The notes under the pieces are model-generated. The model was not told the DNA's origin, searched no databases, and saw only the letters and a program-made list of their open reading frames with translations. This document shows, piece after piece, positions 1,167 through 43,146 of a stretch of 46,039 nt of DNA. The first letter of the stretch is position 1, and each line of letters opens with the position of its first letter. Both the position numbers and the translations under genes were made by a program. Source of the DNA: Candidatus Omnitrophota bacterium (GTDB lineage Bacteria; Omnitrophota; Gorgyraeia; JABMRG01); the NCBI GenBank assembly GCA_028716165.1, contig JAQUQI010000013.1, positions 1 to 46,039 of the forward strand, written 5' to 3'.

Positions 1167-1580
1167 ATGGGCATATCCAGAGAAGTCAGAGAGCGCAGAT
1201 CCAGCAACCGCAAAACAGGCTCGGATGAAAAAAGAAATTATATAAGGGCCGATGTTTCCGTACCGATTATTATTTATGTGAAGAAAAAGAACGGCCCTGA
1301 AAAGGTGAATGCCAGGGCTTGGAACATTAGCGCCAGCGGTATGATGGTAGAGGCGGGTGATAATTTTGATACCGGTATAAAGGTCGGCATTGAAATTACC
1401 ACGCCAGGCAGTCCCAACCCGGTGCACTGTAAAGGCAGGATAGTGTGGGCATCGGAAGGCAAGATCGGCAAAAACGGTTATAGCTACGGTGTGGAATTTA
1501 TTTCCATTGAAGAAGACAACAAGAACACATTCCTGAAGTTTTTATGTGATCTAATATACAAGAACTCGCAAACTTTGTGA
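1167..1580 (+). CDS. PilZ-domain protein (probable c-di-GMP receptor)
   Basis: This 137-residue protein is essentially one PilZ domain. The N-terminal loop has an R-x-x-x-R motif (RNYIR, residues about 31-35) preceded by several Arg residues. The second c-di-GMP contact motif, N-x-S-x-x-G, is present as NISASG at about 51-56. The strand GRIVWASEG and the closing YGVEFISI are also typical. PilZ domains bind c-di-GMP and relay it by protein contact; both ligand motifs are intact, so binding is likely, but the target is unknown. There is no signal peptide, so it should be cytoplasmic. The ribosome site is weak (GGAAAG about 11 bases upstream). It begins 17 bases beyond the preceding terminator. 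A second PilZ protein at 2093 and a c-di-GMP riboswitch at 3000 are close by. Confidence 0.85.
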   Translation: MGISREVRERRSSNRKTGSDEKRNYIRADVSVPIIIYVKKKNGPEKVNARAWNISASGMMVEAGDNFDTGIKVGIEITTPGSPNPVHCKGRIVWASEGKIGKNGYSYGVEFISIEEDNKNTFLKFLCDLIYKNSQTL

Positions 1581-2092: not shown

Positions 2093-2833
2093 ATGAAAAT
2101 TAAAATTAATTATATAAAAAACATAGCGGTTTTGACAGTTGACGGCAAAATCAATATTAATTCGTCAAAGCTTATAGAGAGCGTAGCGGGCCTGCTGGAC
2201 AAGGGCGTATCTAAGCTCATTATTGATATGCAAAAAGTGGATTTCGTTGATTATAACGGCCTGTCTGTGATAGCCATCACCTATAAGAATGTTCTTAACA
2301 ATAACAGCGCCATGAAACTATGCGGGATTGCCCCGCACATACAAGAGCTTTTCAGGGTTGTAAAACTTGATGATGTCTTTGAGATATATAACGACATCAA
2401 TAGCGCTGTATCCGGTTTTGAGGTTGCAACGGATGGCATACGGGCGAAAAGCAGGCCAGGTATCCAGCCGTTGAGAAGGAAATTCGCAAGGCTTGACATG
2501 GACATTCCGGTGACATACAGGCTTTCTCTGCCTGGGAAATGCTTTGCGACTACCGAGATACTAACCGGAAGAATAGAAAATATAAGCGGCGCCGGGCTGT
2601 TCGTGCGTTCAATAAACCTGCTGCCTCCGGGCAGCGAGGTATCGGTTGGAGTAAAACTGAATAATGATCAGGAACCCAGATACTTTAACGGTGTGGTAAT
2701 GTGGCTCGCGGACAAAAATCTCCAGCCCTGGCTGTTCCCCGGAATGGGGATAGCTTTTACGGATATATCATACGGTATCAGAGAAAACATACTGCAGTTT
2801 ATAGAAAAGAACGCCACTCACAGAAAAGGCTGA
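2093..2833 (+). CDS. STAS-PilZ fusion protein
   Basis: This 246-residue protein has two domains. Residues 1-110 are a STAS domain like the anti-sigma factor antagonists (SpoIIAA/RsbV): an opening beta strand ending in VDGKI, the core strand LIIDMQKVDFVD, and a terminal helix. The usual phosphorylation motif D-S-S-G-L is D53-Y-N-G-L57, so the Ser that partner kinases phosphorylate is Asn. Residues about 125-246 are a PilZ domain with both ligand motifs, R-x-x-x-R (RKFAR) and N-x-S-x-x-G (NISGAG), and a closing MGIAFTDIS strand. The likely role is to pass c-di-GMP binding to a STAS partner without Ser-phosphorylation control. The target is unknown; an ECF-type sigma factor gene lies 1.5 kb downstream. 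No obvious ribosome site precedes the ATG. Confidence 0.85.
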   Translation: MKIKINYIKNIAVLTVDGKININSSKLIESVAGLLDKGVSKLIIDMQKVDFVDYNGLSVIAITYKNVLNNNSAMKLCGIAPHIQELFRVVKLDDVFEIYNDINSAVSGFEVATDGIRAKSRPGIQPLRRKFARLDMDIPVTYRLSLPGKCFATTEILTGRIENISGAGLFVRSINLLPPGSEVSVGVKLNNDQEPRYFNGVVMWLADKNLQPWLFPGMGIAFTDISYGIRENILQFIEKNATHRKG

Positions 2834-2909
2834 CCTGCCGATAAAAAAAGACAAAACCGCATACTCAAACCAGCACCTACCCGCCATTTTTTTGTAAATC
2901 TGTAAAAAA

Positions 2910-2921
2910 TGTAAATTTACA
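2910..2921 (+). promoter_or_regulatory. Perfect palindrome upstream of the riboswitch promoter, candidate operator
   Basis: TGTAAATTTACA is a perfect 12-base palindrome. It is flanked by further TGTAAA/TTTGCACA-like half sites at 2893-2932 and ends about 20 bases before the -35 box at 2941. Its position fits a regulator site. The regulator is unknown; the possible ribbon-helix-helix protein at 3193 is one candidate. Confidence 0.4.
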
Positions 2922-2940
2922 CATTTGCACATTTGAACTA

Positions 2941-2969
2941 TTGACTTTTTTCATTACACAAGGCATATT
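2941..2969 (+). promoter_or_regulatory. Promoter of the riboswitch-controlled operon
   Basis: TTGACT at 2941-2946 and CATATT at 2964-2969 are separated by 17 bases. Transcription would start about 25 to 30 bases before the aptamer, as expected if this promoter makes the riboswitch RNA. Confidence 0.5.
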
Positions 2970-2999
2970 TATTACGGAAAGGCAAACAGGGTTCTTTTA

Positions 3000-3100
3000 C
3001 AGAGAATACGATAAAGGCAAACTGTCCGAAAGGACAGGGCGCAAAGCCGCGGGCCTAAAATCTTGTAAAACCAGGGTTATGGCAGTCGGGTTGCCGAATT
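3000..3100 (+). promoter_or_regulatory. Cyclic-di-GMP class I (GEMM) riboswitch aptamer
   Basis: The conserved GEMM-I core is readable by eye against the known Vibrio Vc2 aptamer. In order it has AAAGGCAAAC (3013-3022), a six-pair hairpin CTGTCC/GGACAG with a GAAA tetraloop (3022-3037), GCGCAAAGCC (3039-3048), the tetraloop-receptor-like GGGCCTAAAA (3051-3060), and a 3' half GGTTATGGCAGTCGGGTTGCC (3075-3095 region). The base equivalent to Vc2 G20 is G3016, which favours c-di-GMP over 3',3'-cGAMP, where it is usually A; the base equivalent to A47 is A3043. It precedes an intrinsic terminator and the operon starting at 3193, and two PilZ genes lie just upstream. Whether the ligand turns expression on or off cannot be read from the sequence. 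Confidence 0.9.
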
Positions 3101-3117
3101 TCATTTATTTAGGACAT

Positions 3118-3172
3118 GGCCCCAAGGCTTCAATACGCGCTTTTACCATATTGATAGTTTTGGGGTTTTTTG
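3118..3172 (+). terminator. Riboswitch expression platform: intrinsic terminator
   Basis: Positions 3120-3135 (CCCCAAGGCTTCAATA) pair with 3149-3165 with two G-T wobbles and one bulge, giving a stem of about 16 pairs. A run of six T (3166-3171) follows, and the first gene of the operon starts 20 bases later. This placement is typical of transcription-terminating riboswitches. Confidence 0.8.
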
Positions 3173-3192: not shown

Positions 3193-3492
3193 ATGAAGAT
3201 ACGTCATGGTGAAAAAGAAATCGCGGGTAGAGTGGTAGCGTTTCTTACGAGGCCGGAAATAGATTATATAGACAGCCTTGCAAAAGACGCTTTGTTTTCT
3301 ACGGGGCATAAGTTGTCAAGGACTGACATTATACGCGCTGTCATTGACTGCGTAAAATCAAGTAAAATTAACGGCAAAGGTATTTCTTCAAGGCAGGGGT
3401 TGGAAAAAAGGCTGTATTGTTGTCTGCAGACGGCATTGCCTGATGCCGTATCGGAAATAATTGAGGCAAGGGGCGGGCATGATAATAATTAA
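3193..3492 (+). CDS. Small protein, possible ribbon-helix-helix DNA-binding protein
   Basis: This 99-residue protein is the first gene after the c-di-GMP riboswitch. I do not recognise a named family. Residues about 14-53 have the layout of a ribbon-helix-helix fold: a short strand VVAFLTR, a helix PEIDYIDSLAKDAL, a turn with G and K, then LSRTDIIRAVIDC as the second helix. SRT/S-D-I-I-R-A at the start of that helix is common in CopG/MetJ-type repressors. The rest is a short Lys/Ser linker and a helical tail. There is no signal peptide. The ribosome site is weak. It overlaps the next gene by 14 bases, suggesting translational coupling. A role as an autoregulator or an operon-specific switch is an inference. 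Confidence 0.65.
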   Translation: MKIRHGEKEIAGRVVAFLTRPEIDYIDSLAKDALFSTGHKLSRTDIIRAVIDCVKSSKINGKGISSRQGLEKRLYCCLQTALPDAVSEIIEARGGHDNN

Positions 3493-3742
3493 ACTGGCTA
3501 TGGTCATATTGCTTCTTGCGCCTTTTGTGTTTGTGATCTCGGTTGTGGTATTGTCTTCGGATGAAGCTCTTTACTGTTTAAACGGGGACAGATTATTGAC
3601 TGCGGATATGGGCAGAAATATTGCCGTATATTTGAAGGAGGCCAGCGGGTGTATATTTTGTCTGGAAATGGATATTATACAAGATGCCCTGATGCGGTAT
3701 AGCCGCGCGGGCGGTTTTGTGCCAAGGAGACGCTATGTATAA
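3479..3742 (+). CDS. Small one-helix membrane protein of unknown function
   Basis: The start at 3479 is chosen because AAGGGG lies about 6 bases upstream; an in-frame codon at 3461 has no such site. The 87-residue product has one strong hydrophobic segment at about 4-27, followed by a hydrophilic part with SSDEALYC and a CIFC motif at about 57-60, and ends in a basic RRRYV tail. The uncleaved-looking helix suggests an inner-membrane protein with a short exposed domain; the CxxC pair could bind a metal or form a disulfide. No family recognised. It overlaps the genes on both sides (14 bases with 3193, 8 bases with 3735), so it belongs to the riboswitch operon. Confidence 0.6.
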   Translation: MIIIKLAMVILLLAPFVFVISVVVLSSDEALYCLNGDRLLTADMGRNIAVYLKEASGCIFCLEMDIIQDALMRYSRAGGFVPRRRYV

Positions 3743-3892: not shown

Positions 3893-4246
3893 ATGAGAAG
3901 GGGAAGAGATATGAGGCGCCATCAGAGATGCGTAAGGCGAAAAGCGGGGATAAAGAGGTTCATAAGAGGTTTCTTGCCATTTGCGCTGGTTTTTGTCCTT
4001 GTTTTTCCTGCTGTCGCGGCAGGGCAGGAGGCCGGCAAAAAACTTATACAGGGTATTGAGGATACCGCCACCGGGTGGACGGAAGTGCCTAAGGAAATGG
4101 CCGAGACCACGCAGGAAACGAACGTGGTGGAAGGTGTAACGGCTGGCGCCATAAAAGGCGCGGGCGAGGCTATTTCCGGCACAGTAGAGGGGGTCGTGGA
4201 AATAGCGACCTTCTATGCCCCGGAAAGCGAAGACAATAAGCAATGA
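3893..4246 (+). CDS. TIGR04073-like secreted protein in the riboswitch operon
   Basis: This 117-residue protein starts after a strong AAAAGGAGG site 6 bases upstream. It has an unusually long basic N-terminus (about 25 residues, many Arg), then a hydrophobic segment ending in AVAAGQ, consistent with a signal peptide. The mature part starts KKLIQGIEDTATGWTEVP, aligning well with KKLGRGIVNIATGWVELP in the protein at 711, and continues with a Gly/Ala-rich stretch GVTAGAIKGAGEAISGTVEG. This is the same TIGR04073-like layout, though the C-terminus differs. Unlike the copy at 711, this one lies behind the c-di-GMP riboswitch. It may start further in, at the Met at residue 7. Confidence 0.75.
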   Translation: MRRGRDMRRHQRCVRRKAGIKRFIRGFLPFALVFVLVFPAVAAGQEAGKKLIQGIEDTATGWTEVPKEMAETTQETNVVEGVTAGAIKGAGEAISGTVEGVVEIATFYAPESEDNKQ

Positions 4247-4306: not shown

Positions 4307-4852
4307 ATGCCTCTTGACCGGAAAAACAGATTATTCCAGCTTTTATACAGGCGTTATTTTAATAAGGTACGCTTACGCGTCAGGCGCATTCTGCGCAATG
4401 AAATGGACGTCGTGGATGATATTGTGCAAGAGGCTTTTATGCGCGCTTATATGAACATGGATAAAACGTACAAAAAAGATGATTTTATAAGATGGGTGTT
4501 TATAGTAGCGCGCAATCTCTGCTTGAATTACAAAAGAGCGAACAGCAGGACGTTGGCAGGCGCGTTAAAGCCTGCCGACAGGCAAAACTACAGCGCAAAT
4601 CTCATTGACACTGTAGCTGATTGTAATTGTCCCGCGCCCGATAAGATTGCCGAAAAAAATGAGCTTGTATGCGTGTTCAGGGAGTGCGTGCAAAAATTAA
4701 CGCCTAAATACAGATTGGTTGTCCAGCTTTGCGGCATTGAAGGCTATTCGTATCATGCCGCTGCCGCGCAATTGCATACAAGCGCCAGCGTGATTGCCCA
4801 TGACCTGATGAGGGCAAAGAGGCTTTTATCATCAAAGATGGCTATCATGTAA
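4307..4852 (+). CDS. ECF-type sigma-70 family RNA polymerase sigma factor
   Basis: This 181-residue protein has the two-domain layout of group 4 (ECF) sigma factors. Region 2, at about 10-80, contains the core-binding pattern VVDDIVQEAFMRAY and an aromatic-rich helix (FIRWVFIVARNLCLNY). A linker with Cys residues follows, then region 4 at about 123-176 with LTPKYRLVVQL and a helix-turn-helix (GYSYHAAAAQLHTSASVIAHDLMRAKRLL spans this part). The recognition helix is divergent: A-H-D replaces the usual S-R-x in the position before the L-x-R-A-K end. The start at 4307 follows GGAGGG by 7 bases. It is 60 bases after the preceding gene, so it is probably the last gene of the riboswitch operon. No anti-sigma gene is adjacent. 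Confidence 0.85.
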   Translation: MPLDRKNRLFQLLYRRYFNKVRLRVRRILRNEMDVVDDIVQEAFMRAYMNMDKTYKKDDFIRWVFIVARNLCLNYKRANSRTLAGALKPADRQNYSANLIDTVADCNCPAPDKIAEKNELVCVFRECVQKLTPKYRLVVQLCGIEGYSYHAAAAQLHTSASVIAHDLMRAKRLLSSKMAIM

Positions 4853-42257: not shown

Positions 42258-42623
42258 ATGCTGCGTAAAAAGGGTTTTACTCTGATAGAGGTTTTGATCG
42301 TAATTATTATTTTAGGCATACTCGCCACCTTAGCCATGCCTCAATTCGCGGGCCTGGCAAAAAGGGCCTATTTTGCCGAGGCCTGGACAGGGCTTAGCTC
42401 AATGAGGACTGCCATGGAGTTATACAAGCAGGAAAACGGAAACTATGCCGGAGCCACTGTAGCCAATATACCTTTTACCACTCCGACAGGCGCCGTGTTC
42501 GCTTATTCCATAGCCAGTGTTGACGCGACCAATTATAATCTATTAGCCACCGGAAGCGGTAAGGCATCAGGCCTTACGGCATGGGTGACAGAGGACGGCG
42601 ACAAAGGAAATGCGGGAGCTTGA
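42258..42623 (+). CDS. Type IV pilin/major pseudopilin, copy 1
   Basis: This 121-residue protein has the class III prepilin start MLRKKG-FTLIEV: a short basic leader, cleavage after Gly, Phe at +1 and Glu at +5, then a hydrophobic helix VLIVIIILGILATLAMPQF. The rest is a small globular part (AYFAEAWTGLSSMRTAMELYKQENGNY at its start), with no Cys. This fits a short major pilin or GspG-like pseudopilin. GGAGG 7 bases before the ATG; own promoter and terminator. The protein is identical to copy 2. A prepilin peptidase must be encoded elsewhere. Confidence 0.92.
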   Translation: MLRKKGFTLIEVLIVIIILGILATLAMPQFAGLAKRAYFAEAWTGLSSMRTAMELYKQENGNYAGATVANIPFTTPTGAVFAYSIASVDATNYNLLATGSGKASGLTAWVTEDGDKGNAGA

Positions 42624-42780: not shown

Positions 42781-43146
42781 ATGCTGCGTAAAAAGGGTTT
42801 TACTCTGATAGAGGTTTTGATCGTAATTATTATTTTAGGCATACTCGCCACCTTAGCCATGCCTCAATTCGCGGGCCTGGCAAAAAGGGCCTATTTTGCC
42901 GAGGCCTGGACAGGGCTTAGCTCAATGAGGACTGCCATGGAGTTATACAAGCAGGAAAACGGAAACTATGCCGGAGCCACTGTAGCCAATATACCTTTTA
43001 CCACTCCGACAGGCGCCGTGTTCGCTTATTCCATAGCCAGTGTTGACGCGACCAATTATAATCTATTAGCCACCGGAAGCGGTAAGGCATCAGGCCTTAC
43101 GGCATGGGTGACAGAGGACGGCGACAAAGGAAATGCCGGAGCTTAA
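42781..43146 (+). CDS. Type IV pilin/major pseudopilin, copy 2
   Basis: The product is identical, residue for residue, to copy 1: prepilin leader MLRKKG, cleavage before FTLIEV, hydrophobic assembly helix, small Cys-free globular part, 121 residues. The coding DNA differs only at one Ala codon and the stop. It has its own promoter, GGAGG site and terminator, so the cell gets two full units, which probably raises pilin dosage. Because the flanks have diverged more than the coding part, gene conversion is likely. Confidence 0.92.
   Translation: MLRKKGFTLIEVLIVIIILGILATLAMPQFAGLAKRAYFAEAWTGLSSMRTAMELYKQENGNYAGATVANIPFTTPTGAVFAYSIASVDATNYNLLATGSGKASGLTAWVTEDGDKGNAGA

Follow-up and report, generated by a model that had tools for sequence, protein, structure and literature searches.

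A c-di-GMP-I riboswitch, most likely of the OFF type, before the gene of a probable ribbon-helix-helix regulator in Candidatus Omnitrophota

The locus

The window, which is the whole analysed stretch of 46,039 nucleotides (contig C13), belongs to a Candidatus Omnitrophota genome of 1.6 Mb and 95.7% completeness (G000). A c-di-GMP-I riboswitch lies in front of a gene for a 99-amino-acid protein, probably of the ribbon-helix-helix (RHH) family. The following features were assigned:

1167..1580, +, PilZ-domain protein (c-di-GMP receptor family), upstream; Pfam PF07238, E 2e-14
2093..2833, +, STAS-PilZ protein, immediately upstream; Pfam STAS E 7e-17, PilZ E 1e-11
2893..2941, +, array of six 8-bp boxes: a pair at 2893-2908 and, after one slipped base, a run of four at 2910-2941; TGYAMATT-like consensus
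2941..2969, +, sigma-70-like promoter, TTGACT - 17 nt - CATATT; consensus scan, 9/12
3004..3101, +, c-di-GMP-I aptamer including P1; RF01051 match proper 3006-3098
3016, +, putative ligand discriminator, a G corresponding to Vc2 G20; sequence, mapped via the available parts of PMC6274999 and PMC9049102
3038..3055, +, predicted antiterminator, aptamer half (three 5-bp helices); minimum free energy (MFE) folds of transcripts ending at 3136-3160
3118..3141, +, predicted antiterminator, other half (terminator 5' arm and loop); pairing with the aptamer core
3119..3171, +, intrinsic terminator; stem 3119-3166, dG -19.5 kcal/mol, TTTTTT 3166-3171
3193..3492, +, gene of the 99-amino-acid RHH-like protein, first after the riboswitch; relatives and predicted fold
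3479..3742, +, 87-amino-acid hydrophobic ORF that starts within the 3' end of the RHH gene; similar small ORF in G002
3893..4246, +, exosortase-associated protein of family TIGR04073; NCBIfam, 58.8 bits against a cut-off of 50
4307..4852, +, ECF-type sigma factor; profile matches (NCBIfam, Pfam)

Similarity of the translations placed the PilZ and STAS-PilZ genes in the same order in genome G002, which also shares the succession of RHH gene, small ORF and sigma factor gene. An outer-membrane barrel gene is located beyond the ECF sigma factor gene in the window, and G002 has a barrel gene as well. The 87-amino-acid ORF had no match in Pfam or NCBIfam. In two related loci (L046 and L050), a TIGR04073 gene directly follows the RHH gene.

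The aptamer

RF01051 (c-di-GMP-I) was the only Rfam family with a match in the window (cmscan, Rfam 15, whole window). The match at 3006-3098 (+) covers model positions 1-87 of 87 with 81.7 bits (E 1.1e-14; gathering score 35). This covariance-model search had been proposed in a preliminary description of the sequence, and the full-length match above the gathering score confirms the riboswitch class named there, together with the pocket bases and the conservation in relatives. The GEMM-I motifs listed in that description are all present: GGCAAAC at 3016-3022, a GAAA-capped hairpin at 3022-3037, CGCAAAGCC at 3040-3048, CCTAAA at 3054-3059 and GGGTTGCC at 3088-3095. P1 is formed by 3004-3010 with 3095-3101, with 6 of 7 positions paired. 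All 22 Rfam consensus pairs are standard pairs, and P2 with its GNRA loop and P3 are present. A second RF01051 match was not found in G000.

The binding pocket was mapped onto Vc2 via the available parts of two simulation papers (PMC6274999; PMC9049102). G3016 takes the place of Vc2 G20, as the preliminary description had stated. The other pocket bases are G3010 (Vc2 G14), G3017 (G21), C3042 (C46), A3043 (A47) and C3094 (C92). These bases are as in Vc2. Judged by G20, c-di-GMP is presumably preferred over cGAMP, and the earlier argument from G20 to the ligand is sound as an inference. The window shares with Vc2-type RF01051 riboswitches the full-length covariance match, the GAAA tetraloop, G20, A47 and C92 and the position in a leader; it differs in host phylum and target gene. 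By its sequence, the RNA is an unremarkable member of the c-di-GMP-I class. A second GGCAAAC is located at 2981-2987 in the presumed leader, 35 bases 5' of the aptamer's copy. It may be a decoy, a relic or a chance occurrence.

Terminator and antiterminator

The terminator and its T-run had been recognised in the preliminary description. Its stem comprises some 17 pairs and two further inner ones, against the 16 given there, and the gene start at 3193 lies 21 bases beyond the T-run. Among the 30 RHH-linked leaders, 29 have a terminator hairpin; that of L041 is weak (-2.0 kcal/mol). No terminator hairpin was found in the L048 leader when the 30 leaders were scanned.

Folding of growing transcripts predicts a competing structure. 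In transcripts ending at 3125-3160, the MFE fold breaks the aptamer, and the terminator 5' arm and loop pair with the aptamer core. The three helices are 3118-3122/3051-3055, 3126-3130/3044-3048 and 3137-3141/3038-3042, and all are formed by a 3' end of 3143. The cost of enforcing the aptamer is 5.4 kcal/mol at a 3' end of 3125, 11.2 at 3143 and 12.0 at 3150, and it falls to 3.9 at 3166 and 2.6 at 3172. Once the leader is complete, the fold that contains both aptamer and terminator reaches -49.8 kcal/mol versus -48.3 kcal/mol for the antiterminator; all these folding energies leave aside kinetics, tertiary contacts and the ligand. An antiterminator formed by the CCC of the terminator arm with GGGTTGCC of P3 was also considered and dropped; the fold uses 3038-3055 instead.

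The complementarity between the aptamer (first 52 bases) and the leader in the window amounts to -36.9 kcal/mol versus a shuffle mean of -25.5 kcal/mol (z -2.8, p 0.005, 200 shuffles). Of the 29 linked loci, 14 reached significance (p <= 0.05) and 15 did not, with a mean z of -1.72. In an arm-swap test, the stated expectation was that a terminator arm fits its own aptamer best. The result was weak overall, with 5.94 expected pairs for native versus 4.30 for swapped arms and a mean rank of 0.58 (27 loci; L041 with the weak terminator, L048 and L070 were left out), and the window itself beat 96% of the swaps. As the arm-swap test was barely positive overall, the antiterminator claim rests on the folding of the window and the shuffle test. 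L070, a near copy of L065, was left out of the complementarity test as well.

Further elements were seen in the related leaders. Ten of the 30 RHH leaders contain GTTTGCC or ATTTGCC, complementary to the aptamer GGCAAA(C), often within a second terminator-like hairpin (L042, L045, L047, L055, L057, L058, L064, L065, L067 and L070). An AGCCACG(G) element is conserved between terminator and start codon in L048, L062, L064, L065, L067 and L070; it may mask the ribosome-binding site. In the one locus searched (L065), this leader element, AGCCACGG, had no Rfam match of usable score.

Recurrence of the riboswitch-RHH pairing

Among the sampled genomes, 22 of 59 in the class and 69 of 285 in the phylum encode relatives of the RHH-like protein. 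The 35 named relatives lie on 35 contigs, all of them titled Candidatus Omnitrophota or Omnitrophica. Directly upstream and on the same strand, 29 of the 35 loci have a c-di-GMP-I-type match, counted as c-di-GMP-I, -GGC or -UAU above the gathering score. In L059, L068 and L069, which have no upstream match, the contig ends at the gene or within about 160 bases of it. Upstream sequence is present in L039, L053 and L063, and no riboswitch match was found in it. The overlapping genome sample gave a similar picture: RF01051 was over the cut-off directly upstream of the RHH-like gene in 18 of 22 genomes. In G019, an RlpA-like gene intervenes between riboswitch and RHH-like gene; in G057, the match has 27.9 bits and is below the cut-off. 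G015 and G055 had no upstream riboswitch match in this sample of 22. By our own estimate, a riboswitch would precede a given gene by chance in well under 1% of cases, with a handful among some 1500 genes.

The aptamer itself is widespread. c-di-GMP-I matches were found in 54 of the 59 near relatives, in 52 of them over the cut-off and with as many as 17 in one genome. Across the phylum, 249 of 285 genomes had a match at E <= 0.001 (242 over the cut-off). By eye, the genes after 25 other leaders include those of prepilin-like, RlpA-like and TIGR04073-like proteins and of large secreted proteins. In G003, a genome of the window's family, the riboswitch leads a response-regulator-like protein with a GGDEF motif instead, as seen by eye. 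Tandem c-di-GMP-I aptamers occur in relatives (G013:C45:15052-15414, G021:C27:38641-38900 and G037:C3:12-291), and L067 carries an nhaA-I RNA match at 1720-1771 (47.8 bits).

Several RHH-like relatives have additional ties to c-di-GMP. A C-terminal PilZ domain is fused to the protein in 3 of 35 relatives (L060, L061 and L063). The next gene encodes a HAMP-GAF-GGDEF protein in L039, L041 and L044. In L053, the next two genes encode MshEN domains, the second together with a T2SSE ATPase domain. At ten other loci (L042, L043, L045, L047, L049, L052, L056, L057, L058 and L069), the gene after the RHH gene is conserved, and its product is small, looks secreted and has a CTIPAIPGVNAP-like motif; the two of these proteins that were searched had no match in Pfam or NCBIfam.

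The target protein

The 99-amino-acid protein had no match in Pfam or NCBIfam, to an RHH family or any other, an absence that is compatible with membership in the RHH superfamily. In the PDB, no chain was found below E 0.7, and no solved RHH structure was matched by sequence. The fold was read from predicted structures. An AlphaFold2 model of the whole protein (pLDDT 77.9) has an extended start, helices at 20-37 and 43-56 and then two more. It was based on an alignment of 30 sequences, the window and 29 of the 35 named relatives, without L053, L059, L060, L061, L063 and L070. A model of a 52-residue domain, based on 34 sequences, reached a pLDDT of 87.8 and likewise shows an extended segment at the N-terminus and two helices.

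In VIA-align, the best match of the whole protein was NikR (Z 5.1, rmsd 1.6 over 43 residues), and the next rows were two of ParD and one of PcfF; like all RHH scores here, this one falls in the Z range of 4-6, below 8, which the tool itself calls non-decisive, and was obtained with monomer models. With the same reservation, the domain matched TTHA0139 (Z 6.0, rmsd 2.4 over 51), NikR (Z 5.7, rmsd 2.2 over 45), ParD2 (Z 5.1, rmsd 2.7 over 44) and DinJ (Z 5.0, rmsd 2.4 over 44). The best 8 rows for the domain were, in order, TTHA0139, NikR, ParD2, DinJ, ParD2, ParD1, ParB of pCXC100 and Reg576, most of which we take to be RHH proteins. Foldseek alone gave no E below 2.7 for the models of the RHH-like protein. 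MetJ was absent from the fold tables of whole protein and domain, which excludes nothing. Since the fold scores stay below the tool's level of certainty, RHH is likely and not proven. On these models, the protein is probably a member of the RHH family and a DNA-binding regulator.

A small RHH-type protein tied to c-di-GMP has a precedent in CdbA of Myxococcus xanthus, which is nucleoid-associated and binds c-di-GMP, according to the available part of PMC7156744. The means differ: CdbA binds the messenger via its RHH domain as described there, whereas the tie of the window's family lies at the RNA level and in the PilZ fusion. CdbA was not among the matches of the 99-amino-acid protein in the PDB sequence search.

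Promoter and 8-bp boxes

The six 8-bp boxes directly adjoin the -35 hexamer of the promoter. The promoter is weak evidence by itself, because shuffled versions of the region contain 0.9 sites of this kind on average. The repeat is pronounced: within 2834-3005, the lag-8 self-similarity is 19/24, which was reached by 0 of 2000 dinucleotide shuffles, and TRF reported a period of 8 at 2915-2935.

The period recurs at the linked loci. Over 29 of them, the mean best lag-8 score was 14.03 versus 11.12 (sd 0.30) for shuffles, a z of 9.8, and the other lags gave z 5.5 (lag 16), 3.7 (lag 7) and 4.0 (lag 9), values that overstate independence because the loci are related. Random pieces from the same 29 loci had a lag-8 mean of 10.70 (sd 0.29). 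The clarity of the boxes is uneven among the loci, and 15 of the 29 scored at least 14. Other riboswitch leaders of the class had a lag-8 score of 11.83 (n=24), like the neighbouring lags and with no period-8 excess. These controls had been 25 before L025 was removed, being itself RHH-linked; L015 was kept, with an RHH-like gene second in line. L070 was also left out of the period-8 test.

The array is a candidate operator of the downstream RHH-like protein. A pattern search of G000 that allowed up to 3 mismatches listed 24 matches, and those with 1 mismatch to ATTTGYACATTTGYAC were confined to the array at the RHH promoter. As nothing else in G000 came so close to the paired box, the simplest interpretation is autoregulation. 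The pattern search found no relative of the array elsewhere in G000. A wider regulon was also sought by pattern and is not claimed, since the reversed-pattern control gives as many matches or more at 3 mismatches (G000: 24 versus 44).

Tandem 8-bp met boxes are the operators of the RHH repressor MetJ. The window resembles them in its contiguous, tandem, operator-like 8-bp boxes, here at a promoter, and by analogy they may be occupied by the protein. The sequence of the MetJ box presumably differs from that of the window's boxes, no methionine genes were seen near the array, and the sequence search gave no match to MetJ.

Alternative readings

The preliminary description had left the direction of the switch open, and it had not mentioned the conservation of the RHH-like target gene, the PilZ neighbours or the 8-bp array. 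Here the direction was judged from the folds. In the available part of PMC9262584, two designs are described: in Cd1 of Clostridioides difficile, an OFF switch, aptamer and terminator coexist and both are opposed by an antiterminator, while in pilM, an ON switch with a highly homologous aptamer, aptamer and terminator are mutually exclusive. In the window, aptamer (to 3101) and terminator (from 3119) have no bases in common and are thus compatible, and the predicted antiterminator opposes both, so the window matches Cd1 in silico. Cd1 differs in controlling flagellar genes, whereas the window has a small regulator-like gene; the likeness of the two comes from folding energies and the aptamer/leader complementarity. 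An ON switch, in which c-di-GMP binding blocks termination as in pilM-type GEMM switches, is unlikely. The homology of the pilM aptamer lends it some plausibility, and the 3' strand of P1 and the following spacer could join folds outside those modelled; against it stand the Cd1 pattern and the strong ligand-free alternative fold, which sequesters the terminator's own arm. The folding favours the direction OFF, and a transcriptional OFF switch is the most likely function of the window's riboswitch.

Sensing of 3',3'-cGAMP, alone or along with c-di-GMP, is very unlikely. Few bases distinguish one GEMM-I aptamer from another, and the exchange G20A yields a variant that binds cGAMP (available part of PMC6274999). 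Such A20 aptamers (AGCAAAC) exist elsewhere in the class, namely in L004, L015, L020 (aptamer from 1501) and L043 (3786), and are candidate cGAMP-type sensors in Omnitrophota. However, position 20 is G in the window and in 29 of the 30 RHH-linked aptamers, with A in L043 only, and the source genome encodes 7 GGDEF and 9 PilZ domains. A real riboswitch whose target is no DNA-binding regulator is a somewhat unlikely case; the array would then be the site of another factor or a functionless repeat. The RHH call comes from a monomer model with modest Z, and the fold also occurs in proteins with other main roles, such as ParD antitoxins and the relaxosome protein PcfF. The best 8 rows of the domain, in most of which we presume RHH folds, speak against this, as does the period-8 array, which accompanies RHH-linked riboswitches and is missing from the 24 others.

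Proposed circuit

The preferred reading is a c-di-GMP class I riboswitch that probably switches off transcription of the gene in whose leader it lies, that of a small, probable RHH regulator. Aptamer, terminator, competing antiterminator, gene family and recurrent linkage are established at the level of sequence analysis. Transcription would start near 2976, from the promoter that overlaps the tandem 8-bp array. With the polymerase at about 3125-3160 and no ligand bound, the antiterminator would form, the terminator 5' arm would hold the aptamer core and the gene would be read. If c-di-GMP captures the aptamer first, the 5' arm would be freed, the terminator would form and the gene would be off. 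Autorepression is probable, with the RHH-like protein bound to the 8-bp array at its own promoter. Two brakes would then govern the level of the protein, the protein itself and c-di-GMP.

A wider reading is plausible, if still tentative. The locus may be a lineage-specific hub of a c-di-GMP regulon in Omnitrophota, with an autoregulated, MetJ-like RHH protein on tandem 8-bp boxes and an mRNA cut off by a c-di-GMP riboswitch. Some lineages would also sense c-di-GMP via the fused PilZ domain or co-transcribe a diguanylate cyclase, which would close a feedback loop. One messenger would then be read at the RNA and at the protein level of the same regulator.

The RNA is of a known class; the conserved riboswitch-RHH circuit around it appears to be new. 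The literature search found no paper treating riboswitches in Omnitrophota or Omnitrophica. In the search listing, none combined Omnitrophota with c-di-GMP, and Omnitrophica with c-di-GMP gave single-word mentions only. c-di-GMP-I riboswitches are nearly universal in this phylum, which is known mostly from metagenomes, and they offer a direct route into the control of surface genes by uncultured Omnitrophota cells. The pairing gives an unannotated protein family a testable function, and together with the PilZ fusions and the neighbouring GGDEF genes it points to a possible c-di-GMP feedback circuit.

Additional observations

One GGDEF domain of G000 (C5:15258-15728) lies within an open frame of 9166 codons, possibly a giant protein with a diguanylate cyclase domain. 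At the far end of the window, 42258-42623 and 42781-43146 are tandem duplicates of a prepilin-like gene. Each copy is 366 bases long, and they differ at 2 positions. Beyond the copies, exact identity continues for only 15 bases upstream and 1 base downstream.
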